Source of the DNA: Rhizobacter sp. AJA081-3
GTDB lineage: Bacteria; Pseudomonadota; Gammaproteobacteria; Burkholderiales; Burkholderiaceae_C
Assembly (NCBI RefSeq): GCF_017795745.1
Contig: NZ_CP059067.1
Coordinates: 310,001 to 374,000, forward strand
Direction: 5' to 3'
Length of the DNA stretch: 64,000 nt
The notes below the pieces were generated by a model. That model was not told the DNA's origin and did not search any database. It was given only the letters and a program-made list of their open reading frames with translations. Shown here piece after piece: positions 16,494 through 46,914 of this stretch (the first letter of the stretch is position 1; every line of letters starts with the position of its first letter). The position numbers and the translations under genes were made by a program.

Positions 16494-16518
16494 GAGCACC
16501 CGTCGCCTGGAGACTTTT

Positions 16519-16553: not shown

Positions 16554-16581
16554 CCCTTCCAAAACAATGGAGACACCCGAC

Positions 16582-17919: not shown

Positions 17920-17933
17920 GCGGGAGCCCGAGC

Positions 17934-23940: not shown

Positions 23941-26468
<2,528 letters not shown>

Positions 26469-26481
26469 GGAGAGACCGTCC

Positions 26482-26940
26482 ATGACGAACGAGCCGATGC
26501 CCGTGATCACGGCTGCCGAGGTGCTGTCGCAGACCCGTTTCTTCGGCGACCTGAGCGCTGCCCAGCTGCAGAAGGTGGCCGCGCTGGGCGAGATCCACGA
26601 GTGCGGCGAGGGCGAGCCGATCTACCGCAACGGGGAGCCGGCGCAGAACATGTACGTGCTGGTGCGCGGCATGGTGCGCATGGCGGTGGGCTACGGCGGA
26701 CGCAACGCCAGTGCCGGCGACGTGCTGCGCCGCGGCGACGTGTTCGGCTGGGCCGCGCTGACGCCCAGCTGCAACCGCCGCCTCGCCACGGCCACCTGCC
26801 TGACGCCCTGCACCTTCCTGTCGATCAACGGCGAACGGCTGCTCGAGCTGATGGAGCGGGACCACACGCTCGGCTACCGGCTGATGACGCAGCTCAGCAG
26901 CCTGATCACCGGCACGTTGACGGCTTTCGCGGGCGGCTGA
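26482..26940 (+). CDS. Stand-alone cNMP-binding-like domain protein
   Basis: 152 residues comprising a single cyclic-nucleotide-binding-type beta-roll, with no HTH. The phosphate-binding-cassette region reads RRGDVFGWAALTPSCNRRLA, so Trp90 stands where cAMP-binding proteins have a conserved Glu; the later Arg is kept. The same VFGWAA signature occurs in two fused domains in the window (37236 and 39316 genes). It follows the sigma54 regulator by 13 bases and is likely co-expressed with it. It may be a trans-acting sensor for the sulfonate operon. Confidence 0.88.
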   Translation: MTNEPMPVITAAEVLSQTRFFGDLSAAQLQKVAALGEIHECGEGEPIYRNGEPAQNMYVLVRGMVRMAVGYGGRNASAGDVLRRGDVFGWAALTPSCNRRLATATCLTPCTFLSINGERLLELMERDHTLGYRLMTQLSSLITGTLTAFAGG

Positions 26941-27739: not shown

Positions 27740-28681
27740 TCAGGACACGGCCTGGTAGTAGAGGTTCTGCGGGTGGTTGGCCTGCGCGAAGAAGAACCAG
27801 CGCTCGGCGATCAGCCCGACGTACTGCACCACGAAGGCCGTCGCCAGCAGTGCGCCCGAGCCGCTGCGCAGGCCCAGCGCCAGCAGCACGAGCGGCACGG
27901 CGAAGGCGAGCACGAGGAAGGCCCACTTGATCTGGCGAAGCAGCGCGGCGCTGCGCCGGTGGAAGAACTCGCGCGTGTTGTACGAGCTGCCGGTGAAGCC
28001 CTGCGACTTCTGCACGATGCGCGGGTGGTGGATGCCGGTGGCCGACTGCAGCGTCGACTTCGGCTTCAGCCGTGCGTTGCGCAGCAGCGAGGCCGAGCGC
28101 GTGGCCAGGCCCAGCACAGTGAACACCATCGCCGCCACCGCGTAGGCGCCGGCCAGCGGTGCCGCGGCGAAGGCCGCATAGGCGCTGGCCAGCGTCAGGC
28201 CGCAGGCGCAGCCCAGCAGCACGAAGTTGGCCACCGTCAGCGGGCTGGCCCATTCCTGCAGGAAGCGGATGCAGGCGTAGATCATGCCGGTGCACACGAA
28301 CAGCGTGATGCACAGCAGCGCCCCCACGGCGCCGATGGCCACGCTGCCCGGCCAGCCCTGCCCGTGCGCCAGGCCGTAGGCGAAGACGACGCCACCGAAG
28401 GCGATCAGCGCGATGCCCTCGCGCGACAGCCACGAAGTGCGCCACATCGCCATCGCACGCCAGGCCCGCTCCGGGTGGCCGAGGTGGAACAGCGAGGCCA
28501 CCGCGCCGGCGGCAACGAGCAGCAGCGAGACGATGCTGCCGCCGACCCAGAAGGCCGCGTCGGGCCGCGGCGAGAACACCTGCGCGAGCGCGGCGAGCTC
28601 GGTCGCGTACAGCGCAAGGAACAGGCCCTGGCCGGCGCCGATCAGCGTGGTCAGGAAGATCACCGAGAAGCCAGGATGCAT
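27740..28681 (-). CDS. soeC: SoeC-like membrane anchor (DmsC family)
   Basis: 313 residues with eight hydrophobic segments; begins MHPGFSVIFLTTLIGAGQGL as DmsC/SoeC proteins do. It anchors the molybdoenzyme to the inner membrane and passes electrons to quinone. A soluble stretch near residues 205-245 (GIHHPRIVQKSQGFTGSSYN) links the two halves. It lies after the iron-sulfur subunit gene with a 43-base gap and before the exporter gene. Assignment as sulfite rather than DMSO anchor rests on the neighbours. Confidence 0.88.
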   Translation of the reverse strand: MHPGFSVIFLTTLIGAGQGLFLALYATELAALAQVFSPRPDAAFWVGGSIVSLLLVAAGAVASLFHLGHPERAWRAMAMWRTSWLSREGIALIAFGGVVFAYGLAHGQGWPGSVAIGAVGALLCITLFVCTGMIYACIRFLQEWASPLTVANFVLLGCACGLTLASAYAAFAAAPLAGAYAVAAMVFTVLGLATRSASLLRNARLKPKSTLQSATGIHHPRIVQKSQGFTGSSYNTREFFHRRSAALLRQIKWAFLVLAFAVPLVLLALGLRSGSGALLATAFVVQYVGLIAERWFFFAQANHPQNLYYQAVS

Positions 28682-28724
28682 CGTCGAATCCGTCGGGAGT
28701 GGTGTGGGCCGGGCGCGCGAACGC

Positions 28725-29465
28725 TCAACCGGAGAAGTTGATCGCGTCGTCGAGCGTGCTGCGCGGCTTGGCACCCGGCGCGGGCGGCACCACGTCGATC
28801 TGCTGCGGGTTGTCGGCGCGCACCAGCTCGTCGTCGCGGATGTTGATGACGGTGCGCCGCCGCGGCAGGTAGTGGTTCGACGGCTGCGTGCCCCATTCGG
28901 GCATCAGCGTGTAGCCGCCGCGCTCGCGGATCGCGGTGGACACCTCGGACTCGGGGTCGTGCACGTCGCCGAACAGCCGCGCGTTGGTCGGGCAGGCCAT
29001 CACGCAGGCGGGGCGGCGGTCGGCCTCGGGCAGTTCGGTGCTGTGGATGCGGTCCACGCACAGCGTGCACTTGGTCATCACCTGGCGCTGCTCGTCGAGC
29101 TCGCGCACGCCGTAGGGGCAGGCCCAGGCGCAGTAGCCGCAGCCGATGCACTTGTCGAAGTCGACCAGCACGATGCCGTCCTCGGCGCGCTTGTAGCTGG
29201 CGCCGGTGGGACACACCGGCACGCAGGGCGGGTCTTCGCAATGCAGGCAGCTCTTCGGGAAGTGCACCGTCTGCGTGGACGGGAACTCGCCCACCTCGAA
29301 GGTCTGCACGCGGTTGAAGAAGGTGCCGGCGGGGTTCTCGTCGTAGGGCCGCACGTCGGTCAGCGCGCCGGCGCTGCCCGAGGTGTTCCACGATTTGCAG
29401 CTGGTCACGCAGGCCTGGCAGCCCACGCACACGTTCAGGTCGATCACCAGGGCGAGCTGGGTCAT
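28725..29465 (-). CDS. soeB: SoeB-like four [4Fe-4S] ferredoxin subunit
   Basis: 246 residues. Cys clusters appear in order: CVGCQACVTSCKSW, CLHCEDPPCVPVCPT, CIGCGYCAWACPYG, and CTLCVDRI with a partnering CVMACP. This is the standard layout of a DmsB/SoeB electron-transfer subunit with four clusters. The start MTQLALVIDLNVCVGC overlaps the stop of the catalytic-subunit gene by one base. It passes electrons from the molybdenum site to the SoeC-like anchor. Confidence 0.92.
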   Translation of the reverse strand: MTQLALVIDLNVCVGCQACVTSCKSWNTSGSAGALTDVRPYDENPAGTFFNRVQTFEVGEFPSTQTVHFPKSCLHCEDPPCVPVCPTGASYKRAEDGIVLVDFDKCIGCGYCAWACPYGVRELDEQRQVMTKCTLCVDRIHSTELPEADRRPACVMACPTNARLFGDVHDPESEVSTAIRERGGYTLMPEWGTQPSNHYLPRRRTVINIRDDELVRADNPQQIDVVPPAPGAKPRSTLDDAINFSG

Positions 29466-32383
29466 CACGCACCCCCTTCGGAAGGCTGCTTTCGGCCGGC
29501 GAAGTAGGCCTGCCACAGCCGCCGCGCCGGCCCCATGCCGGGCACCGGTGTCATCGGCGCGAACTGCGGCGAGGTCTCGGCCGGCTCGTCGGCGCCGGCC
29601 TTGCGGATGCGCACGCGCACGTCGTACCAGCCGGCCTGGCCGGTGATCGGGTCGGAGTTCGACAGCGGCGCCGCGCCGCCGGCCTGCGGCAGCACCTCGC
29701 TGATCAGGTGGTTGAGCAGGAAGCCCTTCTTCGCCTCGTCGGCGGCGGCCCCGAGCTGCCAGGCGCCGGCGGCCTTGCCGATGGCGTTCCAGGTCCACAC
29801 TGTGCCGGGCTCCACCGCCTCGCTGAAGCGGCACATGCAGCGCACCTGGCCCCAGGTCGACTCGACCCAGATCCAGTCGCCGTCGGCGATGCCCTGCGCG
29901 CGTGCCGCGAGCGGGTTGACGAACAGGTAGTTGTGGCTGTGGATCTGGCGCAGCCAGGCGTTCTGCGAATCCCAGGAGTGGTACATCGCCATCGGCCGCT
30001 GCGTCACCGCGGCGAGCGGGTAGCGCTCGCCGTCGGTGGCCTGCATCTCCAGCGGCGCCTGGTAGAAGGGCAGCGGGTCGAAGTGCCGCGCGACACGCTC
30101 GCGCAGGTGGGCGGGCGGCTGCTTGCCGGCGCGCTTGCCCTGCGCCGCGAGGCGGAACTTCTGCAGCACATCCGAGTACAGGTGGATCAGGATCGGATCG
30201 GCGTCGCGCCGCATGCGCACGCTCTTCGACCAGTTCATGTAGCCCTGGTTCCAGTTGCGCATGAACTGGTAGGCGGGCGGCAACTCGTGGTGGAAGACGC
30301 AGTTGTTCTGCGCGTACATCTCCCACTGGTTCGGGTTGGGCTCGCCGACGATGGACTTGCTGCCGTCGGCGCCGCGCCAGCCGGCGAGGAAGCCGATGCC
30401 CGAGCCCGGCGCGGTCTCGTAGTTGACGACGAAATCCGTGTAGCCCTTGAACTTGCGCGTGCCGTCGGCGGCGGTGAAGGCCGGCAGCTTCAGGCGCGAA
30501 GCGAGCTCGACGATCACTTCCTGAAAGGGCTTGCACTGGCCGAGTGGCTCGACCACCGGGATGCGCACCGCGTCCACCGGCCCGTCGAACTCCGAGATCG
30601 GCCGGTCGAGGATGGACATCACGTCGTGCCGCTCGAGGTAGGTGGTGTCGGGCAGCACCAGGTCGGCGAAGGCGGTGGTCTCGGACTGGAAGGCGTCGCA
30701 CACCACCAGGAAGGGGATCTTGTAGCCGCCGTCGGCGTCCTTGTCGGTGAGCATGGTGCGCACCTGCGAGGTGTTCATGCTCGAGTTCCAGGCCATGTTG
30801 GCCATGAAGATCATCAGCGTGTCGATGCGGTAGGGGTCGCCGCGCCAGGCGTTGGTGATGACGCTGTGCATCAGCCCGTGCACCGACAGCGGGTGTTCCC
30901 ACGAGAAGGCCTTGTCGATGCGCACCGGCCCGCCGTGCTCGTCGACGAACAGGTCGTTCGGGTCGGCCGGGAAGCCCAGCGGCATGCCTTCGAGCACGCT
31001 GTTCGGCTTGACGTCCTGCGGCCCCTTGGGCGGCTTGGCGATCGGCGGGATGGCGCGCGGGAACGGCGCCTTGTGGCGAAAGCCGCCGGGGCGGTCGATC
31101 GTGCCCAGCAGCGACATCAGGATGGCCAGCGCGCGCACCGTGTGGAAGCCGTTGCTGTGCGCGGCCAGGCCGCGCATCGCATGGAAGGCCACCGGGTTGC
31201 CGGTCACCGTCTGGTGCTCGACGCCCCAGGAGTCGGTCCAGGCGATCGGCAGGTGGATCTTGTGGTCGCGTGCGGTCACGCCCATCTCGTGGGCGAGGCG
31301 GTAGATCGTCTCGACCGGGATGCCGGTGATGCCGCTGGCCCATTCGGGCGTGTAGCCGGCCACGCGCTCGACCAGCAGCTGGAAGGCCGGCTTCACCGCC
31401 TTGCCATCGGGCATCAGGTACTCGCCGCGCAGGCGCGGGTCGGCGCCGGGCGTGTGGGTGGCCACGGCGCTGTCGGTGTGGCGGTCCCACCAGAACTTGT
31501 TGTGCGGGTAGTCGGGGTTGAGCACCTCGCCATCGGCGTCCATCGCGAACAGGCCGAACTCGCCGTCGCCGGGCATCTGGTTCACCAGCTGGCCGCCGTT
31601 GGTGTAGCGGGCGATGAACTCGCGGTCGTACAGGCCCTTGTCGATGATCACGTGGATCAGCGCGAGCAGCAGCGCGCCGTCGGTGCCGGGGCGCACCGGC
31701 ACCCATTCGTCGGCGATCGCCGAGTAGCCGGTGCGGATCGGGTTGATCGACACGAAGCGCCCGCCGCCGCGCTTGAACTTCGAGATGGCGATCTTCAGCG
31801 GATTGCTGTGGTGGTCTTCCGCCGTGCCGATCATGATGAACAGCTTGGCGCGGTCGAGGTCGGGGCCGCCGAACTCCCAGAACGAGCCGCCGATCGTGTA
31901 GATCATGCCGGCGGCCATGTTCACCGAGCAGAAGCCGCCGTGCGCCGCGTAGTTGGGCGTGCCGAACTGCTTGGCGAACAGGCCGGTCAGCGCCTGCATC
32001 TGGTCGCGGCCGGTGAACAGCGCGAACTTCTTCGGGTCGGTGGCGCGCAGGTGTGCCAGCCGCTTCTCGAGCAGCGAAAAGGTCTCGTCCCAGGAGATCT
32101 CGTCGTAGACGCCGGCGCCACGCTCGGTGCCTTCACGGCGCAGCAGCGGCGCCGTCAGGCGCGCGGGCGAGACCTGCTTCATCGCGCCCGAGGCGCCCTT
32201 GGCGCAGATGACGCCCTGGTTCAGCGGGTGATCGGGGTTGCCGTCGATGTAGCGCACCTCGCCGTCACGAAGGTGAACGCGGATGCCGCAGCGGCAGGCG
32301 CACATGTAGCAGGTGGTCTTCTTGACCTCGAGGCTGCCGATGTCCTCGGACTGCGGGTTGGAAAGTCGCTGTTCGCTCGTCAT
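29465..32383 (-). CDS. soeA: SoeA-like molybdopterin catalytic subunit, sulfite:quinone oxidoreductase
   Basis: 972 residues. N-terminal [4Fe-4S] ligands are Cys25, Cys28, Cys32 and Cys60. A Cys at 152 in HGGFCSVNMAAG is the likely molybdenum ligand, as in polysulfide/thiosulfate reductase-type enzymes. No Tat signal is present (it begins MTSEQRLSNPQSEDIGSLEV), so the enzyme is cytoplasmic, as known for SoeABC sulfite-oxidising enzymes. The neighbouring SulP and TauE genes support sulfite as substrate. It oxidises cytoplasmic sulfite to sulfate and reduces quinone. An in-frame upstream extension overlapping the SulP gene is rejected. Confidence 0.9.
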   Translation of the reverse strand: MTSEQRLSNPQSEDIGSLEVKKTTCYMCACRCGIRVHLRDGEVRYIDGNPDHPLNQGVICAKGASGAMKQVSPARLTAPLLRREGTERGAGVYDEISWDETFSLLEKRLAHLRATDPKKFALFTGRDQMQALTGLFAKQFGTPNYAAHGGFCSVNMAAGMIYTIGGSFWEFGGPDLDRAKLFIMIGTAEDHHSNPLKIAISKFKRGGGRFVSINPIRTGYSAIADEWVPVRPGTDGALLLALIHVIIDKGLYDREFIARYTNGGQLVNQMPGDGEFGLFAMDADGEVLNPDYPHNKFWWDRHTDSAVATHTPGADPRLRGEYLMPDGKAVKPAFQLLVERVAGYTPEWASGITGIPVETIYRLAHEMGVTARDHKIHLPIAWTDSWGVEHQTVTGNPVAFHAMRGLAAHSNGFHTVRALAILMSLLGTIDRPGGFRHKAPFPRAIPPIAKPPKGPQDVKPNSVLEGMPLGFPADPNDLFVDEHGGPVRIDKAFSWEHPLSVHGLMHSVITNAWRGDPYRIDTLMIFMANMAWNSSMNTSQVRTMLTDKDADGGYKIPFLVVCDAFQSETTAFADLVLPDTTYLERHDVMSILDRPISEFDGPVDAVRIPVVEPLGQCKPFQEVIVELASRLKLPAFTAADGTRKFKGYTDFVVNYETAPGSGIGFLAGWRGADGSKSIVGEPNPNQWEMYAQNNCVFHHELPPAYQFMRNWNQGYMNWSKSVRMRRDADPILIHLYSDVLQKFRLAAQGKRAGKQPPAHLRERVARHFDPLPFYQAPLEMQATDGERYPLAAVTQRPMAMYHSWDSQNAWLRQIHSHNYLFVNPLAARAQGIADGDWIWVESTWGQVRCMCRFSEAVEPGTVWTWNAIGKAAGAWQLGAAADEAKKGFLLNHLISEVLPQAGGAAPLSNSDPITGQAGWYDVRVRIRKAGADEPAETSPQFAPMTPVPGMGPARRLWQAYFAGRKQPSEGGA

Positions 32384-34458: not shown

Positions 34459-35667
34459 ATGTCGCGCAATTCGAACGAGTGGAAAGAGCGCCCGCAGTTC
34501 CCGCAGACGCACTACGTCAGCACCGAGATCTACACCAGCGAACAGATCTTCCGCGAGGAGCAGGCGAAGGTGTTCGGCAAGGTCTGGATCATCGCGTGCC
34601 ACGAGTCGGAGCTGGTCAACCCGTACGACTTCCGCACCTTCAACCACCCCAGCGGCGCGCCGCTGATCGTGATCCGCGGCGAAGACAACACGGTGCGCAG
34701 CTTCTACAACATCTGCCCGCACCGCGGCAACACGCTGCTGTACGACCCGGTGGGCAATGCCAAGCGCATCACCTGCATCTTCCATGCGTGGTCGTTCAAC
34801 GCGAAGGGCGACTGCATCGACATCTCGCGCGCCAAGCAGGGCTACCAGGACCGCTACGAGTGCAAGGACGCCGGCCTGCGCGAGGTGAAGACCTCGATCG
34901 GCTACGGCGGCTTCGTGTGGGTCAACGTCGACGACGACTGCTGCTCGCTGCAGGAGTACATCGGCGACGCGATGGGCCTGCTCGACGAGAACCTGAACAT
35001 GCCGCTCGAGGTCTTCCATTACCACAAGGCCGTGGTCGACACGAACTACAAGCTGTGGCACGACACGAACAGCGAGTTCTATCACGACTACATGCACTAC
35101 TTCAATCGAATCACCGGGATGATCCAGCCCGGCTACTTCGATCGCAAGTACACCGGCTACCCGAACGGCCACGCGTCGGTGGGCTCGATGTCCATCAAGT
35201 ACGACGCCTATGAAGGCAGCCAGGCGCGCGGCGTGGGCTGGCCGGGCCTGGCCCCCGGCGGCTGGGTGCTGATCGACATCTTCCCCGGCATGACCTTCAA
35301 CCTGCGCACCTCGGTGCTGCGCATGGATACAGCGATACCGCTCGGGCCGAACAAGCTGCTCATCGAGTTCCGCGGCCTGGGCCTGAAGAGCGACACGCCG
35401 GAGCAGCGTGCCGAGCGCATCCGCGACCACAACACCATCTGGGGCCCGTTCGGCCGCAACCTGCACGAAGACCTGCTCGGCGTGAAGGGCCAGGGCCAGG
35501 CGATGCGCGAGGGCACCGACAGCCAGTGGGTGATCCACGGCCGCGAGGAGAACATGACCATCCACGACGAAGGCGGCATGCGGCACTTCTACGCCGAGTG
35601 GAGCCGTCGCATGGGCCGCCCGGCCAGCGAGCCGCTGCCGTCCACCGCCTCGACGCAAGCCGCCTGA
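34459..35667 (+). CDS. Rieske oxygenase alpha subunit, methanesulfonate monooxygenase-like
   Basis: 402 residues. Rieske ligands are C86-x-H88 and C106-x2-H109 with a 17-residue gap. The catalytic site reads NSEFYHDYMH (Glu206, His209, His213): Glu where most relatives have Asp, and only three residues between the two His instead of four. It resembles MsmA of methanesulfonate monooxygenase in length and in gene company: beta subunit, reductase, Rieske ferredoxin and sulfonate importer. MsmA is described with a longer 26-residue Rieske gap, so this is a relative and not MsmA itself. It likely cleaves a small sulfonate to an aldehyde and sulfite. GGAGACAG precedes the ATG. Confidence 0.85.
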   Translation: MSRNSNEWKERPQFPQTHYVSTEIYTSEQIFREEQAKVFGKVWIIACHESELVNPYDFRTFNHPSGAPLIVIRGEDNTVRSFYNICPHRGNTLLYDPVGNAKRITCIFHAWSFNAKGDCIDISRAKQGYQDRYECKDAGLREVKTSIGYGGFVWVNVDDDCCSLQEYIGDAMGLLDENLNMPLEVFHYHKAVVDTNYKLWHDTNSEFYHDYMHYFNRITGMIQPGYFDRKYTGYPNGHASVGSMSIKYDAYEGSQARGVGWPGLAPGGWVLIDIFPGMTFNLRTSVLRMDTAIPLGPNKLLIEFRGLGLKSDTPEQRAERIRDHNTIWGPFGRNLHEDLLGVKGQGQAMREGTDSQWVIHGREENMTIHDEGGMRHFYAEWSRRMGRPASEPLPSTASTQAA

Positions 35668-35700
35668 GCGCTGCTGCCCACCCCACCGACGCGAGGATGC

Positions 35701-36164
35701 CCGTGGACCAACGACACGCCCTGACCGAACTCGTCTGCCGCTCGTGCATGACGCTCGACGACCGCGCCTTCGGCGCCTACCTCGAGCTGTGCGACCCGGC
35801 CTATCGCTACCGCATCACCGCCTACAGCCCGGAGATCCGCAAGGAGATGACCTGGCTGGAGCACGACAAGCCCGGCATGCAGACGCTGTTCACCAACCTG
35901 CCGCGCCACAACAGCGACCAGTCGCCGCTGACGCGTCACGTCACCGTCTACACCGTCGACCAGGACGACGCGAAAGGCCGCGCCAGAGTGGTCAGCGCGC
36001 TGCAGGTGTTCAAGACCACGCTGGACGGCGGCGCGACCGAGCTGTACGCGGTGGGCAAGATCGAGGACGACATCGCGCTCACCGACGCCGGCCCGAAGCT
36101 GCTCGACCGCAACGTCCGCCTGCAGACGCGCATGCTGGGCATCGGCTACCACATCCCCTTCTGA
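35701..36164 (+). CDS. Ring-hydroxylating oxygenase beta subunit (MsmB-like)
   Basis: 154 residues with the NTF2-like fold of oxygenase small subunits: helical start LTELVCRSCMTLDDRAFGAY, core strands CDPAYRYRITAYSPEIRKEM and the closing RNVRLQTRMLGIGYHIPF. It stabilises the alpha trimer and has no cofactor. The start is ATG 35699-35701 region, with GCGAGGATG context. It follows the alpha gene by 33 bases and precedes the reductase. Confidence 0.87.
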
Positions 36165-36187: not shown

Positions 36188-37225
36188 ATGAAGATCCAGA
36201 TCAACGCCCGCAACCGCGCGCATCACTTCGAGGCCGCGCCCGGCGAAAAGGTGCTGTGCGCCGGCCTGGCGCAGTCCGTCGGACTGCCCTACGAATGCGG
36301 CAGCGGCACCTGTGGCACCTGCCGTGCGCGGCTCGTCTCGGGCACGATCGAGGAAGGCTGGCCGGAGGCGCCAGGGCGCAAGTCGCTGAAGTCGGCCGAC
36401 GAGTTCCTGATGTGCCAGTGCACCGCCACCAGCGACCTGTCGCTGGAGGTCACCGCCTTCGTCGAGGCCTTCGACCCGGCGGTGTGCGTGCCCGCCGCGC
36501 TGAAGGGGCACATCCACGGGATGACGCTGCTCACGCACGACGTGGTCGAGATCGACATCGCGCTCGAGGCACCGATGGACTTCGATGCCGGGCAGTTCGT
36601 GCTCGTGCAGATGCCGGGCATCGCCGGCTCGCGCGGCTGGTCGATGGTGAACCATGCGCGCGGTGCGACCATGCTGCGCTTCGTGGTCAAGAAGAAGCCC
36701 GGTGGCCACCTGTCGGAATGGCTCTTCACCGAGCCGCGCGTCGGCGTTCCCGTCGAACTGTTCGGCCCGCTGGGCAGCGCCACCTTCTACCCCGACATCG
36801 CGAAGAACATCGTGTGCATCGCCGGCGGCAGCGGCATCGCCGGGATGATGTCGATCCTCGAGCGGGCCATCGCGGCGCAGCACTTCGCGCGCTTCGACGG
36901 CGACGTCTTCTTCGGCGTGCGCACGATGAAGGACGCCTTCTACCTCGACGAGTTGTCGGCGCAGAAGGCGCGCGGCGGCGATCGGCTGAACATCACCGTG
37001 GTGCTGTCCGACCAGCCGGCCACGGCGGCCGAGCAGGCCGCGTACCCGCTGCTCGCCTTCGACACCGGCTTCGTGCACGAGGCAGCCGGCCGGCGCATGC
37101 AGGGCCGCTTCCAGGGCGTGCGCGCCTACCTGGCCGGTCCGCCACCGGCGGTGGATGCCAGCGTGAGGCTGCTGCTGATGTCGCGCGTCTCGGGCGACAA
37201 CATCCGCTACGACAAGTTCAGCTGA
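36188..37225 (+). CDS. Ferredoxin-FAD reductase component (MsmD-like)
   Basis: 345 residues. The N-terminal plant-type [2Fe-2S] domain has Cys37, Cys42, Cys45 (PYECGSGTCGTCRARL) and Cys76 (EFLMCQC). It is followed by an FAD-binding domain (PMDFDAGQFVLVQMPG then RGWSMVNHA) and an NAD-binding domain (IVCIAGGSGIAGMMSI). It moves electrons from NADH through FAD and the iron-sulfur cluster to the Rieske ferredoxin encoded next. ATG 36188 follows the beta gene by 23 bases. Confidence 0.93.
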   Translation: MKIQINARNRAHHFEAAPGEKVLCAGLAQSVGLPYECGSGTCGTCRARLVSGTIEEGWPEAPGRKSLKSADEFLMCQCTATSDLSLEVTAFVEAFDPAVCVPAALKGHIHGMTLLTHDVVEIDIALEAPMDFDAGQFVLVQMPGIAGSRGWSMVNHARGATMLRFVVKKKPGGHLSEWLFTEPRVGVPVELFGPLGSATFYPDIAKNIVCIAGGSGIAGMMSILERAIAAQHFARFDGDVFFGVRTMKDAFYLDELSAQKARGGDRLNITVVLSDQPATAAEQAAYPLLAFDTGFVHEAAGRRMQGRFQGVRAYLAGPPPAVDASVRLLLMSRVSGDNIRYDKFS

Positions 37226-37235: not shown

Positions 37236-37964
37236 ATGAAGCGCATCCCCATCTGCAAGGCGAGCGACATCCCGGCCAACGGGATGAAGAGCTACGACAC
37301 CGCGCTCGGCGTGAAGGTGCTCATCGCCAACGCGGGTGACGCCTACTACGGCTACCAGGGCATGTGCCCGCACCAGGACGTCTGCCTCGACGAGGGCTTC
37401 TTCGACGGCGCCACGCTCACCTGCCACCAGCACCTGTGGCAGTGGGACATCACCACCGGCGAGGCCGTCGGCCTGGCCGAGGCGCCGCTGGAGCGCTTCG
37501 TCATCGAGCACGAGGGCGACGAGCTGTTCGTGCTGCAGTCCAGCGCGCTGAAGGTGTCGGAGCTGTTCAAGGGCGCCTCCGACGCGGCCATCGCGAAGCT
37601 CGATGCGCTGGCGCGCCGCGAAACGCACCAGAGCCTGGCCACGCTGTACGACGTGAACGACCCGGCCGACGACCTGTGGGTGCTGGAGTCGGGCCGCGTC
37701 GAATTCATCATCGGCCGCGGCGAGCGCACCAGCCCCGCCGGCTTCATGTTGCGCAAGGGCGAGGTGTTCGGCTGGGCGGCGCTGCTCGAGAACCACCCGA
37801 AGCGCATCGCCCGCGCGGCCTGCGCCGAGACCTCGACGCTGCTGCGCCTGAAGGGCGAGGACGTGTTGCGCGTGCTCGCCGAAGACCCGGCCTCGGGGTA
37901 CCTGGTGATGCGGCAGCTCTCGTCGCTGATCACGAAGCACCTCTGGTCGCAGGGGGGCAAATAG
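37236..37964 (+). CDS. Rieske ferredoxin fused to a cNMP-like domain
   Basis: 242 residues. Residues 1-105 are a Rieske ferredoxin (C44-P-H46 and C63-H-Q-H66), the electron carrier expected for this oxygenase. Residues about 108-242 are a cyclic-nucleotide-binding-type beta-roll with RKGEVFGWAALLENHPKRIA; Trp180 replaces the ligand-binding Glu of cAMP-binding proteins. An electron carrier fused to a nucleotide-sensor-like domain is very unusual and suggests allosteric control of electron flow. Overlap and spacing show it belongs to the operon (10 bases after the reductase). Confidence 0.93.
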   Translation: MKRIPICKASDIPANGMKSYDTALGVKVLIANAGDAYYGYQGMCPHQDVCLDEGFFDGATLTCHQHLWQWDITTGEAVGLAEAPLERFVIEHEGDELFVLQSSALKVSELFKGASDAAIAKLDALARRETHQSLATLYDVNDPADDLWVLESGRVEFIIGRGERTSPAGFMLRKGEVFGWAALLENHPKRIARAACAETSTLLRLKGEDVLRVLAEDPASGYLVMRQLSSLITKHLWSQGGK

Positions 37965-38080: not shown

Positions 38081-39226
38081 ATGACGTTTGGCATCTACAA
38101 GGGCGTGCGCACCGCGCTGGCGGCCGTCGCCGCCGCAGCCGGGCTCGGATTCATCGCACCGTCGGCCGCGCTCGCGGGCGACCTCGAGTACGGCAAGCCG
38201 GGCGAGCCGGTGAACCTCGTCATCGGCTACCAGCCGTACTACACGGAGTCGTGGTCGGGCGTGATCATGCGCGGCAAGAAGCTCTACGAGAAGTACCTGC
38301 CCAAGGGCTCGACGGTGGAGTTCTCGGTGGGCCTGCAGGGCGCGGTGATCGTCAACGCCATGCTCGCCGGCAAGCAGCACATCGGCTACGTGGGCGACAT
38401 GCCGGGCATCGTCTCGACCACCAAGCAGGACGTGGCCGACATCCGCATCATCGCCTCCGTGGGCCTGGGCACCGACGCGTGCAACGTGCTGCTCGCCCGC
38501 CCCGACGCGCCGAAGTTCGCCAGCGGCAAGGAAGGCATCAAGTGGCTCGACGGCAAGCGCGTCGCGATCCCGCTGGGCAGCTGCGCCGACCGTTTCGCGC
38601 AGGAAGCATTCAGGAAGGAAGGCGTCAAGCCCGAGGCGGTGCTGAACCAGAACATCGAGGTCATCACCAGCGGCTTCCGCGCCGGCAAGCTCGACGCCGC
38701 GGTGATCTGGGAGCCCACGGCCTCGCGCCTGGTGCAGGAAGGGCTGGCCAAGCGCATCGCCTCCGGCGCCACCGTCAACGAGAACGACGGCGCCTTCCTG
38801 ACGATGCGGGCCGACCTGATCAAGCAGCGCCCCGACATCGTCAAGGCCTGGCTGAACGCCGAGCTCGACGCGCAGCTGTTCCTGGCCGACCCGAAGAACG
38901 CGATGGAGGTGGCGGCGATGGCCACCGCGCAGACCACCGGCTTCACCGAGAAGATGCTGTGGTCGTCGATGTACGGCCAGAACCCGGCCGAATCCGGCGG
39001 CGCGACGACGCGGCTCACGCTGCCCTTCGCGCTGACCCCGGACGTGATGAACCTGGTCACCACGGCGGCGAAGTTCCTGCACTCGATCAAGAGCATCAAC
39101 GTCGACACGCTGCGCGCCGATGCGGTGATGCCCGAGTTCACCCAGCAGATCCTCAAGGAGCGAGGCCTGTCCGCGCCGGTCGGCAAGGTCATGGCCCAGC
39201 CCGACAGCGCCTACAAGTCGAAGTAG
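38081..39226 (+). CDS. Sulfonate-type ABC transporter substrate-binding protein
   Basis: 381 residues. A signal peptide ends near SAALAGDLEYG. The mature protein begins VNLVIGYQPYYTESWSGVIM and contains STVEFSVGLQGAVIVNAMLAG, YVGDMPGIVST and DAAVIWEPTASRLV, the pattern of SsuA/TauA/NrtA-type periplasmic binding proteins. AGGAGACAGAC precedes the ATG. It follows the Rieske-cNMP gene by 116 bases, the only sizeable gap in the operon. Sulfonate uptake is inferred from its place beside the oxygenase; nitrate or nitrile relatives also exist. Confidence 0.9.
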   Translation: MTFGIYKGVRTALAAVAAAAGLGFIAPSAALAGDLEYGKPGEPVNLVIGYQPYYTESWSGVIMRGKKLYEKYLPKGSTVEFSVGLQGAVIVNAMLAGKQHIGYVGDMPGIVSTTKQDVADIRIIASVGLGTDACNVLLARPDAPKFASGKEGIKWLDGKRVAIPLGSCADRFAQEAFRKEGVKPEAVLNQNIEVITSGFRAGKLDAAVIWEPTASRLVQEGLAKRIASGATVNENDGAFLTMRADLIKQRPDIVKAWLNAELDAQLFLADPKNAMEVAAMATAQTTGFTEKMLWSSMYGQNPAESGGATTRLTLPFALTPDVMNLVTTAAKFLHSIKSINVDTLRADAVMPEFTQQILKERGLSAPVGKVMAQPDSAYKSK

Positions 39227-39315: not shown

Positions 39316-40659
39316 ATGGACCAGACCAACGCCCTGCTCAGACGGGCGATGCCCTTCCAGACGGTGTCGGACGAGCTGCTCGCCGACATCGGCAAGCTGG
39401 CCAAGCTGAAGTCGTACGCCCGCGGCGACGTGATCTACAACGCCGGCGACGTGGCCGACAACATCCAGATCGTCTCCTCGGGCGCGGTCGAGCACGTGCT
39501 CAAGGTCGGCGCCCAGGGCAGCGACATCGAGCGCGTGATGCGCAGCGGCGACGTGTTCGGCTGGGCCGCCGTGCTCGACGGCACCCGCGGCCGACTGGCC
39601 AGCACGAAGAGCCTGGAGCGCACCGAGATCCTGCAGATCGACGGCGAGGAGCTGATGGCGCTGATCGCCCGCTCGCCGCAGACGGGCGACGTGATCATGA
39701 GCCGCTTCGCGACCATGATCACCAAGGAGTTCGCCGCGCCCGATGCAGTGGCGGCGCGCATCCCTCACTTCGGGCAGGCCGCCGGCACCGCTGCAATGCC
39801 CGCGCAAGGCGACGGCGTGGGCAGCGGCTGGGCGCTCACCGCGTTCCGCCTGTCGCAGTGGCTCAAGAGCCCCAAGCCCTACCTGATGCTGGGCGGCTTC
39901 GCGATCCTGCTGTCGTTCTGGTACCTGACGGTGGAGGTGTGGAAGCTGCCGCGCTTCAAGGACACGCCGGGGCTGACCACCGTGGTCAAGGAGCTGTTCA
40001 GCACCAACCCGGTGTACGGCCTGTCGGTCTACACGCCCGAGTACTACCAGCACATCTGGGCCAGCGTCCGGCGCGTGGCGATCGCCTTCTTCCTGGCCAC
40101 CGTGCTGGGCGTGCCGCTGGGCCTGTTCCTCGGCTGGTCGAAGAAGTTCCGCGAATACGTGTTCCCGGTGTTCGAGACATTGCGGCCGATCCCCATCCTG
40201 GCCTGGGTGCCGCTGGCGATCCTGATGTTCTCGGGCGCCGAGACGCCGGTGATCTTCCTGACCTTTCTGGCCTCGTTCTTCGCCACCGCGCTGAACACGA
40301 TGCTCGGCGTCGAGTCGATCGACGAGTCGTACAGCCGCGCCGCCTACTGCCTGGGCGCGAGCAAGTGGCAGGTGTTCCGCGAGGTCATCGTGCCCGGCGC
40401 GATGCCCTTCATCTTCACCGGGCTGCAGATCTCGGTGGGTGTCGCGTGGTTCTCGCTGGTGGCCGGCGAGATGGTGTCGGGCGAGTTCGGCCTGGGCTAC
40501 GTGATCAACACCTCGTACACGATGGTGCGCTACCCGACCATCGTGATCGGCATGGCCACGCTCGGCGCGGTCGGCTACGGCACCAGCGCGCTGGTGCGGA
40601 TGGTGGGGGACTACATGATGCAGTGGCGTGTGCGCGAACTCGCGCTGGGCGGCCGGTGA
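39316..40659 (+). CDS. ABC permease with N-terminal cNMP-like domain
   Basis: 447 residues. Residues 1-150 form a cNMP-type beta-roll (MRSGDVFGWAAVLDGTRGRL; Trp83 in place of the usual Glu). Residues about 190-447 are a TauC/SsuC-type permease with six membrane helices and the ATPase-contacting loop SRAAYCLGASKWQVFREVIV. The sensor faces the cytoplasm next to the ATPase contact. A nucleotide-sensor domain on an importer permease is rarely seen and suggests gating of transport by an internal ligand. The stop overlaps the next start (TGATG). GGAAACCACTGC precedes ATG 39316. Confidence 0.93.
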   Translation: MDQTNALLRRAMPFQTVSDELLADIGKLAKLKSYARGDVIYNAGDVADNIQIVSSGAVEHVLKVGAQGSDIERVMRSGDVFGWAAVLDGTRGRLASTKSLERTEILQIDGEELMALIARSPQTGDVIMSRFATMITKEFAAPDAVAARIPHFGQAAGTAAMPAQGDGVGSGWALTAFRLSQWLKSPKPYLMLGGFAILLSFWYLTVEVWKLPRFKDTPGLTTVVKELFSTNPVYGLSVYTPEYYQHIWASVRRVAIAFFLATVLGVPLGLFLGWSKKFREYVFPVFETLRPIPILAWVPLAILMFSGAETPVIFLTFLASFFATALNTMLGVESIDESYSRAAYCLGASKWQVFREVIVPGAMPFIFTGLQISVGVAWFSLVAGEMVSGEFGLGYVINTSYTMVRYPTIVIGMATLGAVGYGTSALVRMVGDYMMQWRVRELALGGR

Positions 40660-41522
40660 TGAACAACATGATCGAGACAGGCCGTATGTCGCAGCAGGCC
40701 GCGACGCAAGGGGCGATCCGCATCGAGGACGTGGTCAAGATCTACGACCCCGACGGCGCGGCGGTGATGGCGGTGGACCACTGCTCGCTGGACATCCCGG
40801 CCGGCGAGATCTGCATGATCGTCGGGCCTTCGGGCTGCGGCAAGACGACGCTGCTCAACGCCATCGCCGGCTTCCACAGCATCACCTCGGGCCGCATCTT
40901 CATGGACGGCAAGCTGCTGTGCGGGCCCGACAAGCCGATGGCCGAGCCCGGCTCCGACCGCATCGTGGTGTTCCAGAACGGCGCGCTGTTCCCGTGGAAG
41001 ACCAACCTCGAGAACGTCGCCTTCGGCCCGCTGATGCAGGGCAAGCTGAGCAAGAAGGAGATCTACGACAAGGCCCGCAGCATGATGGCCGACGCGGGCC
41101 TCAGCGGCACCGAGAACAACTTCCCCGGCGAGGTCTCGTCGGGTTTGCGCCGGCGCGTGGAGATCGTGCGCGCGCTGATGAACGACCCGAAGGTGCTGCT
41201 GTTCGACGAGCCCTACCGCGCGCTGGACTCGCTGACCAAGTCGGTGATGCACGAGGCGCTGCTGGAGATCTACTACAAGAACAAGGTCACCATCTTCTTC
41301 ATCACGCACGACCTGGAGGAGGCGATCTTCCTCGGCCACCGCCTGGTCATCATGACCTCGCGGCCGTGCAAGCCGAAGAAGATCCTGACGGTGGACATCC
41401 CGCACCCGCGCGACTACGGCGTGCTCACCAGCCCGCGTTTCCGCGAGCTGATGGAAGAGACCAGTGCCGTCGTGCACGAGGAGGCGAAGAAGTCCTTCGC
41501 CGCCGGCGAGAGGGAGGGCTGA
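40659..41522 (+). CDS. ABC ATPase 1, degenerate signature motif
   Basis: 287 residues. Walker A IVGPSGCGKTTLL, Q-loop VVFQNGALFPW, Walker B VLLFDEPYRALD and H-loop FFITHDLEE are intact. The signature that should read LSGGQ is SSGLRRRVE, lacking the second Gly and the Gln. In an ABC dimer each ATP site joins one protein's Walker motifs to the partner's signature, so this protein spoils the site formed by ATPase 2. It overlaps the permease stop and is followed by permease 2 after 3 bases. Confidence 0.92.
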   Translation: MNNMIETGRMSQQAATQGAIRIEDVVKIYDPDGAAVMAVDHCSLDIPAGEICMIVGPSGCGKTTLLNAIAGFHSITSGRIFMDGKLLCGPDKPMAEPGSDRIVVFQNGALFPWKTNLENVAFGPLMQGKLSKKEIYDKARSMMADAGLSGTENNFPGEVSSGLRRRVEIVRALMNDPKVLLFDEPYRALDSLTKSVMHEALLEIYYKNKVTIFFITHDLEEAIFLGHRLVIMTSRPCKPKKILTVDIPHPRDYGVLTSPRFRELMEETSAVVHEEAKKSFAAGEREG

Positions 41523-42359: not shown

Positions 42360-43277
42360 ATGAGCAACCCCATCGCAAGCGACCGGCCCGCCGGCACCAA
42401 CGGCAAGGCGCCGACGACGGCCGGCGAGATCCGCGTCGAGGGCGTCAGCAAGGCCTACGGCACCGGCCTGTTCTCCAAGACGGTGATCAACGACTGCTCG
42501 TTCGCCATTCCGCGCAACAAGCTGACCGTGATGATCGGCCCCTCGGGCTGCGGCAAGAGCACGCTGATCCGCCTGCTGGCCGGGTTCGAGAAGCCCACCA
42601 GCGGAACGATCACCATCGACGGCAAGCCGATCACCGGGCCGGGCAAGGACCGGCTGGTGGTGTTCCAGGAGTCGGCACTGTTCCCCTGGATGACCACCTT
42701 CGACAACATCATGTACGGCCCGCGGGCGCGCGGCGAGGACAACCCGCAAAGCCGCGCGCAGGCTGAGTTCCTGCTCGAGAAGGTGGGCCTGAAGGCCTTC
42801 CGCAAGAAGTACCCGCCGCAGCTGTCGGGCGGCATGCAGCGCCGCGCCGAACTGGCGCGCGCGATGATCAACAACCCCGACGTGATGATCCTCGACGAGC
42901 CCTTCCGCGGCCTGGACGCGATGTCCAAGGAACTGATGTGGGAGTACTACGCGGGCCTGTTCGAGGAGTCGCACCGCACCAACTTCTTCGTCACCACCGA
43001 CATCGACGAGGCCATCTTCCTGGCCGACCGGCTGATCGTGATGACGAACACGCCGACCAAGGTGCGCGCGGTGATCGACGTGGACATCCCGCGCCCGCGG
43101 CGGCTCGTCAACATCTTCGACAACGACCATGCCAACGAAGTGAAGATGCGCGCCCTCTCGCTGCTGCACGAGGAGGCGATGAAGTCCTTCTCCGGCGGAA
43201 GCCGCGCCGCCGCGGACTTCGTCGAGGCCTATTCCAGGCGCACGGGCGACCGTGCCAACGGCGCCAAGCCGGCCTGA
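42360..43277 (+). CDS. ABC ATPase 2, degenerate H-loop
   Basis: 305 residues. Walker A MIGPSGCGKSTLI, Q-loop VVFQESALFPW, intact signature QLSGGMQRRAE and Walker B VMILDEPFRGLD. The H-loop that should read THD is TTD (FFVTTDIDEAI), losing the His that senses the ATP gamma-phosphate. With ATPase 1 it would form one complete site (ATPase 1 Walker motifs with this LSGGM) and one degenerate site. The N-terminal 25 residues are a disordered extension. Confidence 0.93.
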   Translation: MSNPIASDRPAGTNGKAPTTAGEIRVEGVSKAYGTGLFSKTVINDCSFAIPRNKLTVMIGPSGCGKSTLIRLLAGFEKPTSGTITIDGKPITGPGKDRLVVFQESALFPWMTTFDNIMYGPRARGEDNPQSRAQAEFLLEKVGLKAFRKKYPPQLSGGMQRRAELARAMINNPDVMILDEPFRGLDAMSKELMWEYYAGLFEESHRTNFFVTTDIDEAIFLADRLIVMTNTPTKVRAVIDVDIPRPRRLVNIFDNDHANEVKMRALSLLHEEAMKSFSGGSRAAADFVEAYSRRTGDRANGAKPA

Positions 43278-43304: not shown

Positions 43305-44159
43305 ATGGCAAAAAAAGTGATCGACATGCGCAGCCGGCCGTCGTTCCTGCATGACTTCTACGGCAAGACCCGTGGCACGCCGGAGTTCGAGGTGGTCAAG
43401 TGGCTCAACGGCCGCGTCGGCTCGAAGAACGTCGAGCACTTCACGGCCTCGCGCGACATCGAGTCCTTCGTCCGCGAGATCAAGGACACGCGCATCGCGG
43501 CCTCGGTGGTGGTGGGCCGCGACACGCCGGGCATCAAGCACTCGAACGACGAGATCCACGAGATGGTGCGCCGCCACAAGGAGCTGGTGGGCGTGGGCTC
43601 GATCGACCCGCACCGCTGGGGCGCCCGCGCCGCCGTGCAGGAGGTGGAGCGCGCGATCACGGTGCTCGGCCTGAAGGCGATCAACGTCGAGCCCGGCTTC
43701 GGCAGCCCGCTGCGCAGCGCCGACGACCCGATGCTGTTCCCGGTCTACGACGCCTGCGAGCAGCTCGGCGTGCCGGTGTCGATCATGTCGGGCCCGACGG
43801 CGCCGAGCCTGGACTTCGTGCGCCCGGCCGCGGTGGGCCACGTGGCCAAGGCGTTCCCGAAGCTGGCCATCGTCTGCTACCACGGCTTCTACCCGTTCGT
43901 GAACGAGATCCTCGGCGTCGCGCTGCGCTGGGAGAACGTCTTCATCGTGCCCGACATGTACATCTTTGCGCCGGGCGGCAGCCTGTACGTCGAGGCGGCC
44001 AACGGCGCGATGCGCCAGCAGATCCTGTTCGGCAGCTCCTACCCGTTCCGGCCGATGGCGCAATCGATCAACGACTACCGCATGCTCGGCTTCGACGACG
44101 GCGTGATCGACGACGTGATGTACGGCAACGCCAAGCGCGTGCTGAAGCTGGCGGTCTGA
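43305..44159 (+). CDS. Amidohydrolase-fold protein lacking usual metal ligands
   Basis: 284 residues with the amidohydrolase-2 TIM-barrel pattern (CYHGFYPFVNEI, then LFGSSYPFRPMAQSINDYR). The family's first metal motif D-x-H-x-H is here D7-M-R9-S-R11, and the conserved G-S-D-x-P is G-S-S245-Y-P. His193 in CYHG is kept. The missing His pair and Asp suggest a metal-free or altered activity, perhaps binding the sulfonate or an aldehyde product. Gap of 27 bases after ATPase 2; AGGAGAACAGAAC precedes the ATG. Confidence 0.85.
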   Translation: MAKKVIDMRSRPSFLHDFYGKTRGTPEFEVVKWLNGRVGSKNVEHFTASRDIESFVREIKDTRIAASVVVGRDTPGIKHSNDEIHEMVRRHKELVGVGSIDPHRWGARAAVQEVERAITVLGLKAINVEPGFGSPLRSADDPMLFPVYDACEQLGVPVSIMSGPTAPSLDFVRPAAVGHVAKAFPKLAIVCYHGFYPFVNEILGVALRWENVFIVPDMYIFAPGGSLYVEAANGAMRQQILFGSSYPFRPMAQSINDYRMLGFDDGVIDDVMYGNAKRVLKLAV

Positions 44160-45011: not shown

Positions 45012-46325
45012 ATGACAGACAGCAAGAGCTCCCGGCTCGTCAGCGCGGCGAGATCGGAACTGCAGGCGGCGGGGTCGATCACGCACGACCCGTCGCGGCG
45101 CGCGATGCTCGGCCGCACGGCGGCCGCAGCTGCCGGCGGCGTGGCCGCACTGGCGGGCGGGCGCGCCGCCGCGGCCCCCGTGCCCGTGCCGGCGTCGAAC
45201 CTGGCGCTGGGCCGCGCCCTGCCCGAGACCGAGTACGGCATGCCATCGAAGTACGAGGCGCACGTCAAGCGACGGCGCACCGATGTGCTCGTGAACCGGC
45301 AGAACTTCTCCGACTGGAGCATGACGCCGCTGCACCAGCAGCACGGCACGCTCACGCCCAACGGCCTGATCTACGAGCGCCACCACAGCGGCGTGCCCGA
45401 CATCGACCCGCAGCAGCACCGCTTCGCCATCCACGGCATGGTGCGCAAGCCGCTGCTGTTCACGATGGACGACCTGATGAAGTACCCGTCGGTGACGCGC
45501 TTCCACTTCATGGAGTGCTCGGGCAACGGCCTGACCGACTGGCTCAAGGCGAGCTCCAAGACCGTGCAGCAGACGCATGGCCTGCTGTCGTGCGCGCAGT
45601 GGACCGGCGTGCCGGTGTCGACCCTGCTCGACGAAGCCGGCGTGCGACCCGAAGCCACCTGGGCATTGGCCGAAGGCGCCGACGGCGCGGCGCATGCGCG
45701 CAGCATCCCGATGGCCAAGCTGCTCGAGGACGCGATGATCGTCTACGCCTCCAACGGCGAGATGCTGCGGCCCGAGAACGGCTACCCGCTGCGCCTGTTC
45801 ATCCCCGGCTGGGAAGGCAACGTCAGCATCAAGTGGCTGCGCCGCATCAAGCTCGGCGACCAGCCCTGGCACCTGCGCAGCGAGACGGCGCGCTACACCG
45901 ACCCGATGCCCGACGGCAAGTGGCGGCAGTTCAGCTTCGCGATGGAGGCCAAGTCGGTGATCACCTCGCCGTCGGGCGGCATGAACGTGCGCCCGGGCGA
46001 GATCGAGATCCTCGGCTTCGCCTGGTCGGGCCTTGGCAAGATCCGCACGGTCGACGTCACGCTCGACGGCGGACGCACCTGGCGCGAGGCCACGCTCGAG
46101 GAGCCGGTGCTCGACAAGTGCCTGACGCGCTTCCGGCTGCGATGGCAGTGGGACGGCACGCCCGCGACGATCGCCAGCCGCGCGGTCGACTCCACCGGCT
46201 ACGTGCAGCCCACCGTGGAAGAGATCAGGAAGGTCCGCGCGATCACCGGATTCGTGCAGCACCACAACGGCGTGTTCCCGTGGTCCATCAATGCCGCAGG
46301 GGAGGTGAAGAATGCAATCGCCTAA
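45012..46325 (+). CDS. soxC: SoxC-like periplasmic sulfite dehydrogenase, molybdenum subunit
   Basis: 437 residues. The N-terminus carries a twin-arginine signal (PSRRAMLGRTAAAAAGGVAA) for export of the folded molybdoenzyme. The sulfite-oxidase fold has the Mo-pterin ligand Cys169 in FHFMECSGNG, and the dimerisation domain ends in AITGFVQHHNGVFPWSI. Length matches SoxC. GGAGGACGAC precedes the ATG. It overlaps the cytochrome gene by 14 bases. It oxidises periplasmic sulfite to sulfate and passes electrons to the SoxD-like cytochrome. Confidence 0.9.
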   Translation: MTDSKSSRLVSAARSELQAAGSITHDPSRRAMLGRTAAAAAGGVAALAGGRAAAAPVPVPASNLALGRALPETEYGMPSKYEAHVKRRRTDVLVNRQNFSDWSMTPLHQQHGTLTPNGLIYERHHSGVPDIDPQQHRFAIHGMVRKPLLFTMDDLMKYPSVTRFHFMECSGNGLTDWLKASSKTVQQTHGLLSCAQWTGVPVSTLLDEAGVRPEATWALAEGADGAAHARSIPMAKLLEDAMIVYASNGEMLRPENGYPLRLFIPGWEGNVSIKWLRRIKLGDQPWHLRSETARYTDPMPDGKWRQFSFAMEAKSVITSPSGGMNVRPGEIEILGFAWSGLGKIRTVDVTLDGGRTWREATLEEPVLDKCLTRFRLRWQWDGTPATIASRAVDSTGYVQPTVEEIRKVRAITGFVQHHNGVFPWSINAAGEVKNAIA

Positions 46326-46914
46326 GTTTCTCTGGCTCGCGCTTGCCGCGGGATTCGTGCTGGCCGGTTGTGCGGCCACCAAGTCGACGGCCGGCGGCAG
46401 CCCCGCGCAGCCGCGCGGGCAGGCGGTCAGCGAGGCCGACCTGCTGGCCTGGAACATCGACGTGCGCACGCCGGATGGGCTGGGCCTGCCGCCGGGCTCC
46501 GGCTCGGTCGCGGCGGGCAAGGCGGTGTTCGACGCCAAGTGCGCTTCGTGCCACGGTGCGGCAGCGGCCGGCGGGCCGGTGTTCGGCAGCATGGTCGGGG
46601 GCATCGGCTCGTTCAAGACCGACCGCCGCGTGCTCACCCCGGGCAGCATGTACCCGTATGCACCGGTGTTGTTCGACTACGTGCGGCGTGCCATGCCAAT
46701 GAACGCGCCACAGTCGCTGAGCAACGACGAGGCCTATGCGGTGACGGGCTACGTCCTGCAGCTCAACGGCCTGGTCGCGGCCGATGCGGTGATGACGGCG
46801 GCCAGCCTGACGGCCGTGCAGATGCCCAACCGCAACGGCTTCATGGTCGACGACCGGCCCGACACCGCGGCCACGCGCTGCATGAGCCAGTGCACGCCGA
46901 TCTCGGGCAAGTGA
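46312..46914 (+). CDS. soxD: SoxD-like c-type cytochrome lipoprotein
   Basis: 200 residues. It begins MQSPKFLWLALAAGFVLAGC, with a lipobox (LAGC) anchoring it to a membrane. One haem-c site CASCH lies near residues 77-81, and the axial Met is probably in YVRRAMPMNAPQ. SoxD of Paracoccus is a longer diheme protein, so this is a short monohaem version closer to SorB-like partners. The C-terminal RCMSQCTPISGK contains a Cys pair. It overlaps soxC by 14 bases. It is the natural electron acceptor. Confidence 0.88.
   Translation: MQSPKFLWLALAAGFVLAGCAATKSTAGGSPAQPRGQAVSEADLLAWNIDVRTPDGLGLPPGSGSVAAGKAVFDAKCASCHGAAAAGGPVFGSMVGGIGSFKTDRRVLTPGSMYPYAPVLFDYVRRAMPMNAPQSLSNDEAYAVTGYVLQLNGLVAADAVMTAASLTAVQMPNRNGFMVDDRPDTAATRCMSQCTPISGK

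Follow-up and report, generated by a model that had tools for sequence, protein, structure and literature searches.

The locus and its genes

The DNA that was analysed, hereafter called the window, is a stretch of 64,000 nucleotides from Rhizobacter sp. AJA081-3 (contig NZ_CP059067.1). It contains an operon for a Rieske oxygenase with its reductase and ferredoxin, an ABC importer and an amidohydrolase, in which all genes from the oxygenase large subunit to the amidohydrolase lie on one strand and are separated by short gaps. A domain of the cyclic-nucleotide-binding type (CNBD) is found at the N-terminus of one permease, at the C-terminus of the ferredoxin, and as a free-standing protein encoded upstream. 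The relevant features are the following.

26482–26940, plus strand: free-standing CNBD of the same subfamily, 152 residues, directly after the gene for an NtrC-type response regulator
26956–27711, minus strand: sulfite exporter of the TauE/SafE family
27743–32299, minus strand: three-gene molybdoenzyme with catalytic, Fe-S and DmsC-like subunits
34459–35667, plus strand: Rieske oxygenase large subunit, MsmA-like, motif CXH-X17-CXXH
35697–36164, plus strand: oxygenase small subunit (PF00866)
36188–37225, plus strand: Fe-S/FAD/NAD oxygenase reductase
37236–37964, plus strand: Rieske ferredoxin with C-terminal CNBD, 242 residues (PF00355 at residues 4–80, PF00027 at residues 136–217)
38081–39226, plus strand: periplasmic binding protein of the SsuA/TauA/NrtA kind (TIGR01728, 110.6 bits, under the cut-off of 163.5)
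39316–40659, plus strand: fused permease, 447 residues (CNBD ~1–142, variable linker ~143–176, TauC/NrtB-type permease ~177–447)
39316–39741, plus strand: CNBD portion of the fused permease (FGWAA 81–85, RLA 93–95, C-helix 121–138)
40659–41522, plus strand: first ABC ATPase, whose start codon overlaps the permease stop codon
41526–42350, plus strand: second permease, without CNBD
42360–43277, plus strand: second ABC ATPase
43305–44159, plus strand: Amidohydro_2 family protein
45012–46325, plus strand: sulfite dehydrogenase SoxC (TIGR04555, 624.4 bits, above the cut-off of 420)
46312–46914, plus strand: cytochrome c adjoining SoxC

The gene for the CNBD-bearing ferredoxin is located two genes upstream of that for the fused permease. 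The initial annotation, which was directed at the permease, overlooked the CNBD of the ferredoxin (37236–37964), the free-standing CNBD (26482–26940) and the loss of the ribose-binding glutamate discussed below. The Amidohydro_2 gene following the second ATPase gene is present in some of the loci with a fused permease and missing from others. The three-gene molybdoenzyme (27743–32299) resembles PhsA/DMSO reductases and scores under their cut-offs; it is perhaps a sulfite-oxidizing enzyme, for which we take SoeABC as the candidate name. A nearby minus-strand frame is taken, from its sequence, for a SulP transporter. The genes for a histidine kinase, the NtrC-type response regulator and the free-standing CNBD stand in a row (23941–26940, plus strand), and the free-standing CNBD may take part in this signaling pathway.

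A CNBD fused to an importer permease

The initial annotation described one open frame joining a cyclic-nucleotide-type domain to a TauC-type permease, and its coordinates, strand and length are correct. The frame runs from an ATG at 39316 to a stop codon at 40657–40659 as a single frame of 447 codons with zero internal stops, and Pfam, fold and hydropathy all agree with the proposed domains. PF00027 matches residues 32–119 (E 5.2e-14; 52.4 bits against a curated cut-off of 27.5), and PF00528 matches residues 265–425 above its cut-off (E 1e-26). AlphaFold, run on residues 1–150 with 29 sequences, predicts a CNBD fold (pLDDT 87.4, pTM 0.82), and a Foldseek search with this model retrieved Crp-type CNBDs (best match 4byy, E 1.6e-12), the CNBDs of Crp/GlxR and PKG being among the nearest solved folds. 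The N-terminus thus belongs to the CNBD fold by its Pfam score and its predicted structure, and the Pfam score, the model and the Foldseek matches together rule out a chance or mis-scored domain.

The remainder of the protein is a type I ABC importer permease of the TauC/NrtB kind (PF00528), as indicated by the BPD_transp_1 match, the membrane segments and an EAA-type loop identified from reading the sequence. Its nearest solved relatives are CmpB (E 6.2e-40) and the nitrate permease (E 5.6e-37), and it stays under the equivalog cut-offs of NCBIfam for TauC (140.9 vs. 342), NtrB (140 vs. 209.05) and SaoP (155.8 vs. 295). Hydropathy analysis yielded nine overlapping peaks, all from residue 188 on, which are read as six membrane segments, and no membrane segment in residues 1–170. 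The EAA loop of ABC importer permeases is cytosolic. Since four membrane segments separate the CNBD from the EAA-type loop in the hydropathy reading, both would be on the same side, and the CNBD is probably cytosolic. The orientation of the domains was not taken from the full-length model of 447 residues (17 rows), because that model is weak (pLDDT 68.6, pTM 0.39).

A break in the frame between residues 150 and 190, considered in the initial annotation, was not found; the two parts are fused in one frame in 23 loci, which also rules out a frame error or an assembly artefact. GC3 is high across the joint (0.99 in the CNBD, 0.86 in the linker and 0.98 in the permease). Within its own genome the fusion is singular: by position, one of the 58 PF00528 matches lies in one frame with any of the 26 PF00027 matches.

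Distribution of the fusion

A search for the same fusion in other genomes, as had been proposed, brought the number of fused loci to 23, window included, and among them are loci of Thiobacillus thioparus, Methylibium, Glaciimonas and strain PBA. All but two are whole (21/23): in L028 the contig starts within the CNBD, and the sequence of L083 breaks off within the permease half. The related-locus search alone returned 19 loci, i.e., 13 fused ones (L017–L028 and L030), three with an orthologous permease without CNBD, and three with other permeases (L033–L035), which were excluded, as was L082, where the frame runs off the contig. The orthologous permeases without CNBD are those of L029, L031, L032 and L127. 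The contig of L022 is labeled as a metagenome-assembled genome of Rhizobium sp., and its proteins are near-identical to those of T. thioparus DSM 505 (L027); perhaps the label is wrong or the contig misbinned. Being near-identical, the two loci are not independent.

Genomes were searched with a profile made from a 17-row alignment, and the own genome is counted in each tally. Matches to both domains were found in 8 of 399 genomes of the order, with a contig-cut match in a ninth (9/399), and fusion matches in 5 of 399 genomes of the family and 2 of 369 genomes of the class. No fusion was found among the five other genomes of the same genus listed in the family search. Its sparse presence within the family and its occurrence in several families suggest that the cluster is accessory and perhaps transferred.

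The whole protein has relatives in 1467 plasmid records, three of which cover at least 80% of the query. Among the best 30, 27 start at residue 161 or later, i.e., in the permease part. Earlier starts are seen in H10 (54–421), which is one of the three among the matches listed, and in H17 and H30 (119–443), at 26–29% identity; these matches run across permease and binding-protein genes and are not accepted as fusions. No plasmid relative of the ferredoxin CNBD was found at E 1e-8. A related importer cluster without CNBD is present in L084, L085, L086 and L126, where the permease is 51–55% identical and the binding-protein gene comes last.

A twin fusion on the ferredoxin

Apart from L028, all fused loci include the ferredoxin gene in the stretch read, which makes 22 of 23, and a CNBD is attached to the ferredoxin in 21 of them. 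The sole exception is L030 of strain PBA, where the ferredoxin lacks a CNBD. Among the loci with an unfused permease, a ferredoxin-like match was found in L031 and L127, and in neither does it carry a CNBD; L031 has a 26-residue oxygenase signature and a free-standing CNBD adjoining the reductase. A free-standing CNBD is within the stretch read in eight of the 23 fused loci, i.e., the window, L020, L021 (cut; whole in L079), L028, L030, L074, L076 and L078, and the remaining fused loci may have one outside that stretch. Two variants of the arrangement were encountered: L071 encodes a permease with two tandem CNBDs before the membrane part (8508–10310, minus strand), and L125 has an operon with two consecutive Rieske ferredoxins, of which the first kind is bare and the other carries a CNBD (11888–12961, minus strand).

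The CNBDs were compared in a set of 50 sequences. This set and the tree made from it left out fragments of less than 100 residues (the permease CNBD of L028 and the free-standing CNBD of L021), the short loci L036–L046, L062 and L066–L069, which duplicate places covered by longer loci, and L070, L077 and L079–L081, which lie on the same contigs as L027, L020, L021, L017 and L029; the whole free-standing CNBD of L079 was dropped along with its locus. L125 is counted in the 23 loci and is outside the 50 sequences. In the tree, the permease CNBDs form one clade (100/100) and the ferredoxin CNBDs another (91/89), and the two clades group together with the CNBD of L031 (96/89). A simple history would be that a free-standing partner was duplicated and fused twice. 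As the permease tree leaves the place of L029 and L031 open, their permeases may have lost a CNBD.

The initial annotation placed the sensor on the permease and suggested that an internal ligand may gate uptake there. A sensor-type domain is indeed located on the permease, probably in the cytosol, but a reading confined to the permease misses the ferredoxin and free-standing copies; with these, the CNBD is better regarded as a module of the whole system.

A changed but conserved pocket

When aligned against the FGE motif of the PKG type, the subfamily has a tryptophan (Trp83) at the position of the glutamate, which we take to be the ribose-binding residue, in all 50 sequences, whichever of the three kinds they belong to. 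Arg93 of the RLA motif, presumably the phosphate-binding residue, is kept in 49 of the 50. Thus, of the two features expected of a cyclic-nucleotide-binding CNBD, the arginine is present and the glutamate is not. By comparison, 20 of 20 CNBDs from other genomes read GE (profile matches in 398 phylum genomes, E up to 1e-16, ten candidates scored per genome), and among the eight other CNBDs of the own genome five read GE and none GW. The replacement of the glutamate with retention of the arginine argues against a cyclic nucleotide, which is an unlikely ligand for this subfamily, and, as we infer, for a retained anion site. The term "cNMP-like" in the initial annotation is, as far as the ligand is concerned, not supported.

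The mean entropy of the pocket columns (residues 78–87, 93 and 95, hand-picked) is below that of all 133 contiguous 12-residue segments in each of the three kinds of CNBD. This does not prove binding, as conservation of this segment is a general property of CNBDs. In the permease CNBDs, where the C-helix leads into the membrane part, this helix is the most conserved of 127 segments of the same width, a rank that it does not reach in the ferredoxin or free-standing CNBDs.

Compared with the membrane part, the CNBD of the permease evolves more quickly: in blocks of 20 residues, 13 others show a mean identity with the window of 44–75% over residues 1–140 and 89–96% over residues 261–420. For the CNBD, dN/dS ratios of 0.056 and 0.067 were obtained with two Thiobacillus-type pairs, which reveals purifying selection in close pairs, and of 0.12–0.63 with six other pairs; the values of 0.45–0.63 in three pairs with the window and of 0.46 in L018/L019 are rough, synonymous change being low and codon-biased. 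For the membrane part, the ratio is 0.02–0.26 and lower than that of the CNBD in eight of eight pairs. Judged by these ratios, the permease CNBD appears constrained, yet more loosely than the transporter.

The substrate of the importer

The initial annotation proposed uptake of sulfonates, and this setting holds: the operon contains sulfonate-type import genes, and sulfite-handling genes are nearby. The presence of SoxC, cytochrome c, a TauE/SafE exporter, the molybdoenzyme and the SulP-like protein leads us to infer that the substrate is an organosulfonate from which sulfite is released.

Methanesulfonate is a possible substrate. The window has the gene content of the msmABCD/msmEFGH systems, i.e., a two-subunit Rieske oxygenase, ferredoxin, reductase and ABC importer, and the importer genes of Filomicrobium, as far as given in Table 1 of PMC4433239, are ordered as in the window: binding protein, permease, ATPase, permease and then a further ATPase gene. 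In contrast, the Rieske spacer comprises 17 residues in the window and not the 26 of the msm signature. The X17 form is found in the window and in all 21 of the 23 fused loci in which the motif was found (L018 is incomplete at this place, and the DNA of L028 does not extend upstream). According to the portions of that paper available to us, the 26-residue spacer is held to mark true methanesulfonate monooxygenases; short-spacer proteins occur in Methylibium, Methyloversatilis, Ralstonia and Thiobacillus among others, their clusters have been annotated as methanesulfonate monooxygenase without proof, and its authors are aware of no hard data that such proteins act on methanesulfonate (PMC4433239). 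By the coordinates in the same table, MsmF has ~295 and MsmC ~125 residues, which leaves no room for a CNBD in either. The cluster is also present in T. thioparus DSM 505, which is called an obligate chemolithoautotroph in the accessible part of PMC5248467; methylamines, methanol and methane are among the carbon sources tested there, in a partly available sentence that we read as stating that they did not support growth. The lifestyle of this strain and the 17-residue spacer argue against methanesulfonate.

In the X26 loci L128, L129 and L134, the ferredoxin lacks a CNBD, and neither a CNBD of the subfamily nor a related ABC permease was found in the 19.5–25.2 kb read; as regards the permease, these loci are therefore uninformative. 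The distant cluster L135 has a spacer of 17, a ferredoxin without CNBD and no CNBD of the subfamily; hence, the fusion does not follow from a spacer of 17 by itself. In addition to the spacer, the CNBD pair distinguishes the 23 loci from the four X26 clusters seen. L128 is located on a plasmid of Methylobacterium nodulans (2486–18210) and combines an X26 oxygenase with TauE/SafE, a molybdopterin oxidoreductase and a cytochrome c, with formate dehydrogenase and an MFS transporter nearby; the stretch contains no related ABC importer, and the cluster may represent a methanesulfonate pathway. In L073, the match to the oxygenase large subunit falls into two overlapping pieces in different frames (13091–14273, minus strand), i.e., a frameshift or sequencing error.

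A possible role for the CNBDs

We tentatively favor, at somewhat less than an even chance, a metabolite-sensing brake common to the permease and the ferredoxin. The fused protein would provide one of the two permease subunits of a type I ABC importer that takes up an organosulfonate. Its cytosolic N-terminal CNBD would function as a sensor and respond to a small metabolite that is anionic but not a cyclic nucleotide, the prime candidates being the imported sulfonate and the sulfite derived from it. Ligand binding would be relayed via the C-helix and the linker to the permease and brake import, as methionine brakes MetNI. A signal of the same kind would be perceived by the ferredoxin CNBD and perhaps also by the free-standing copy, which would coordinate import with electron supply and possibly with expression. 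Consistent with such a brake are the retention of the fusion in 23 loci, the distinct clades, the twin on the ferredoxin, the low entropy of the pocket, the low dN/dS in close pairs, the rank of the C-helix in the permease CNBDs, the predicted cytosolic side and the nearby sulfite genes. Against it count the faster evolution of the CNBD, the unfused orthologues in L029, L031, L032 and L127, and the availability of a cyclic-nucleotide signal in the cell, as indicated by the cyclase matches and canonical GE CNBDs. The CBDs of family 2B encapsulins, which in the accessible part of PMC12407261 keep the fold but are reported not to bind cyclic nucleotides, also count against a sensor.

The twin fusion and the sister clades would also fit if ligand-free CNBDs paired with each other and tethered the ferredoxin, and with it the oxygenase, to the importer, such that the substrate is oxidized on entry. 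We consider such docking rather unlikely. It would fit with the fact that one of the two permeases carries a CNBD, since the partner CNBD may then come from elsewhere. The distances of permease and ferredoxin CNBDs correlate, given seven other parts, with a partial coefficient of 0.27 (Mantel p = 0.004; 19 loci, leaving out L018, L030, L028 and L083), but the second permease, a control part, correlates as well, with 0.31; co-evolution of the CNBDs is therefore suggestive at most. Where the ferredoxin lacks its CNBD (L030), the permease CNBD is the only one of the 50 CNBDs without Arg93 and its terminal branch is the longest in the permease clade. However, this is a single case, and with 45% identity to the window, against 46–50% in L071–L076 and 35% in L125, it resembles other distant loci and is not a convincing outlier from identity alone. 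Docking, moreover, would not require conservation of the pocket. The permease and ferredoxin CNBDs might also meet with or without a shared ligand and thereby link entry and first oxidation both physically and allosterically at the membrane, a combination that we regard as unlikely.

It seems distinctly improbable that the domain is a passenger, i.e., an old duplication that adds little and is retained for folding or stability: the fast evolution of CNBD and linker and the existence of unfused orthologues would fit, but a single permease-CNBD clade has been kept over 23 loci with an invariant pocket and low dN/dS in close pairs. Very unlikely is a true sensor by which cAMP or cGMP gates sulfonate import within carbon control since, despite the fold, the arginine and the four class III cyclase matches in the own genome, the tryptophan replaces the glutamate throughout the subfamily, as opposed to the GE of the phylum sample.

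Comparison with known systems

The nearest solved permeases are those of NrtBCD and CmpBCD, whose known regulation is at the ATPase side. The chain names of the structures assign a C-terminal regulatory domain to the ATP-binding subunits, where we presume it to be located. The premise of the initial annotation, that importers are usually regulated through domains on the ATPases or PII-type proteins, agrees with the available portions of a 2023 review, which describe MetNI and ModABC as regulated by C-terminal domains on the ATPase and PII as contacting the nucleotide-binding domains of NrtABCD (PMC10710835). The window shares with MetNI and ModABC an importer with a fused domain of the small-molecule-regulated type, but in those systems the domain is on the ATPase, has another fold and has a known ligand.

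CNBDs on transporters have precedents in the MFS-CNBD fusions, cited for transporter regulation by fused domains in the same portions of that review (PMC10710835), and in the sperm Na+/H+ exchanger (PMC10620091, available in part). These are secondary transporters, unlike the ABC importer described here, and the accessible text of the two papers makes no mention of a twin CNBD on a redox partner. In the open-access literature, searched by titles and the starts of abstracts, no report was found in which the permease of an ABC importer carries a CNBD or a Rieske ferredoxin its twin.

Family 2B encapsulins likewise possess a CNBD fold outside transcription factors, and their profile weakly matches residues 9–127 of the permease (2.2e-8, 33.7 bits against a cut-off of 400). 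Their CBD is, in contrast, inserted in a shell protein; it is reported not to bind cyclic nucleotides, and its function is called unknown in the part of PMC12407261 available to us. If the sensor works as proposed, regulation of this ABC importer would operate via the permease instead of the ATPase, and the redox partner of the substrate-consuming enzyme would bear a copy of the sensor; the system would also offer a tractable way to address the ligands of CNBDs with a changed pocket, a question shared with the family 2B encapsulins.
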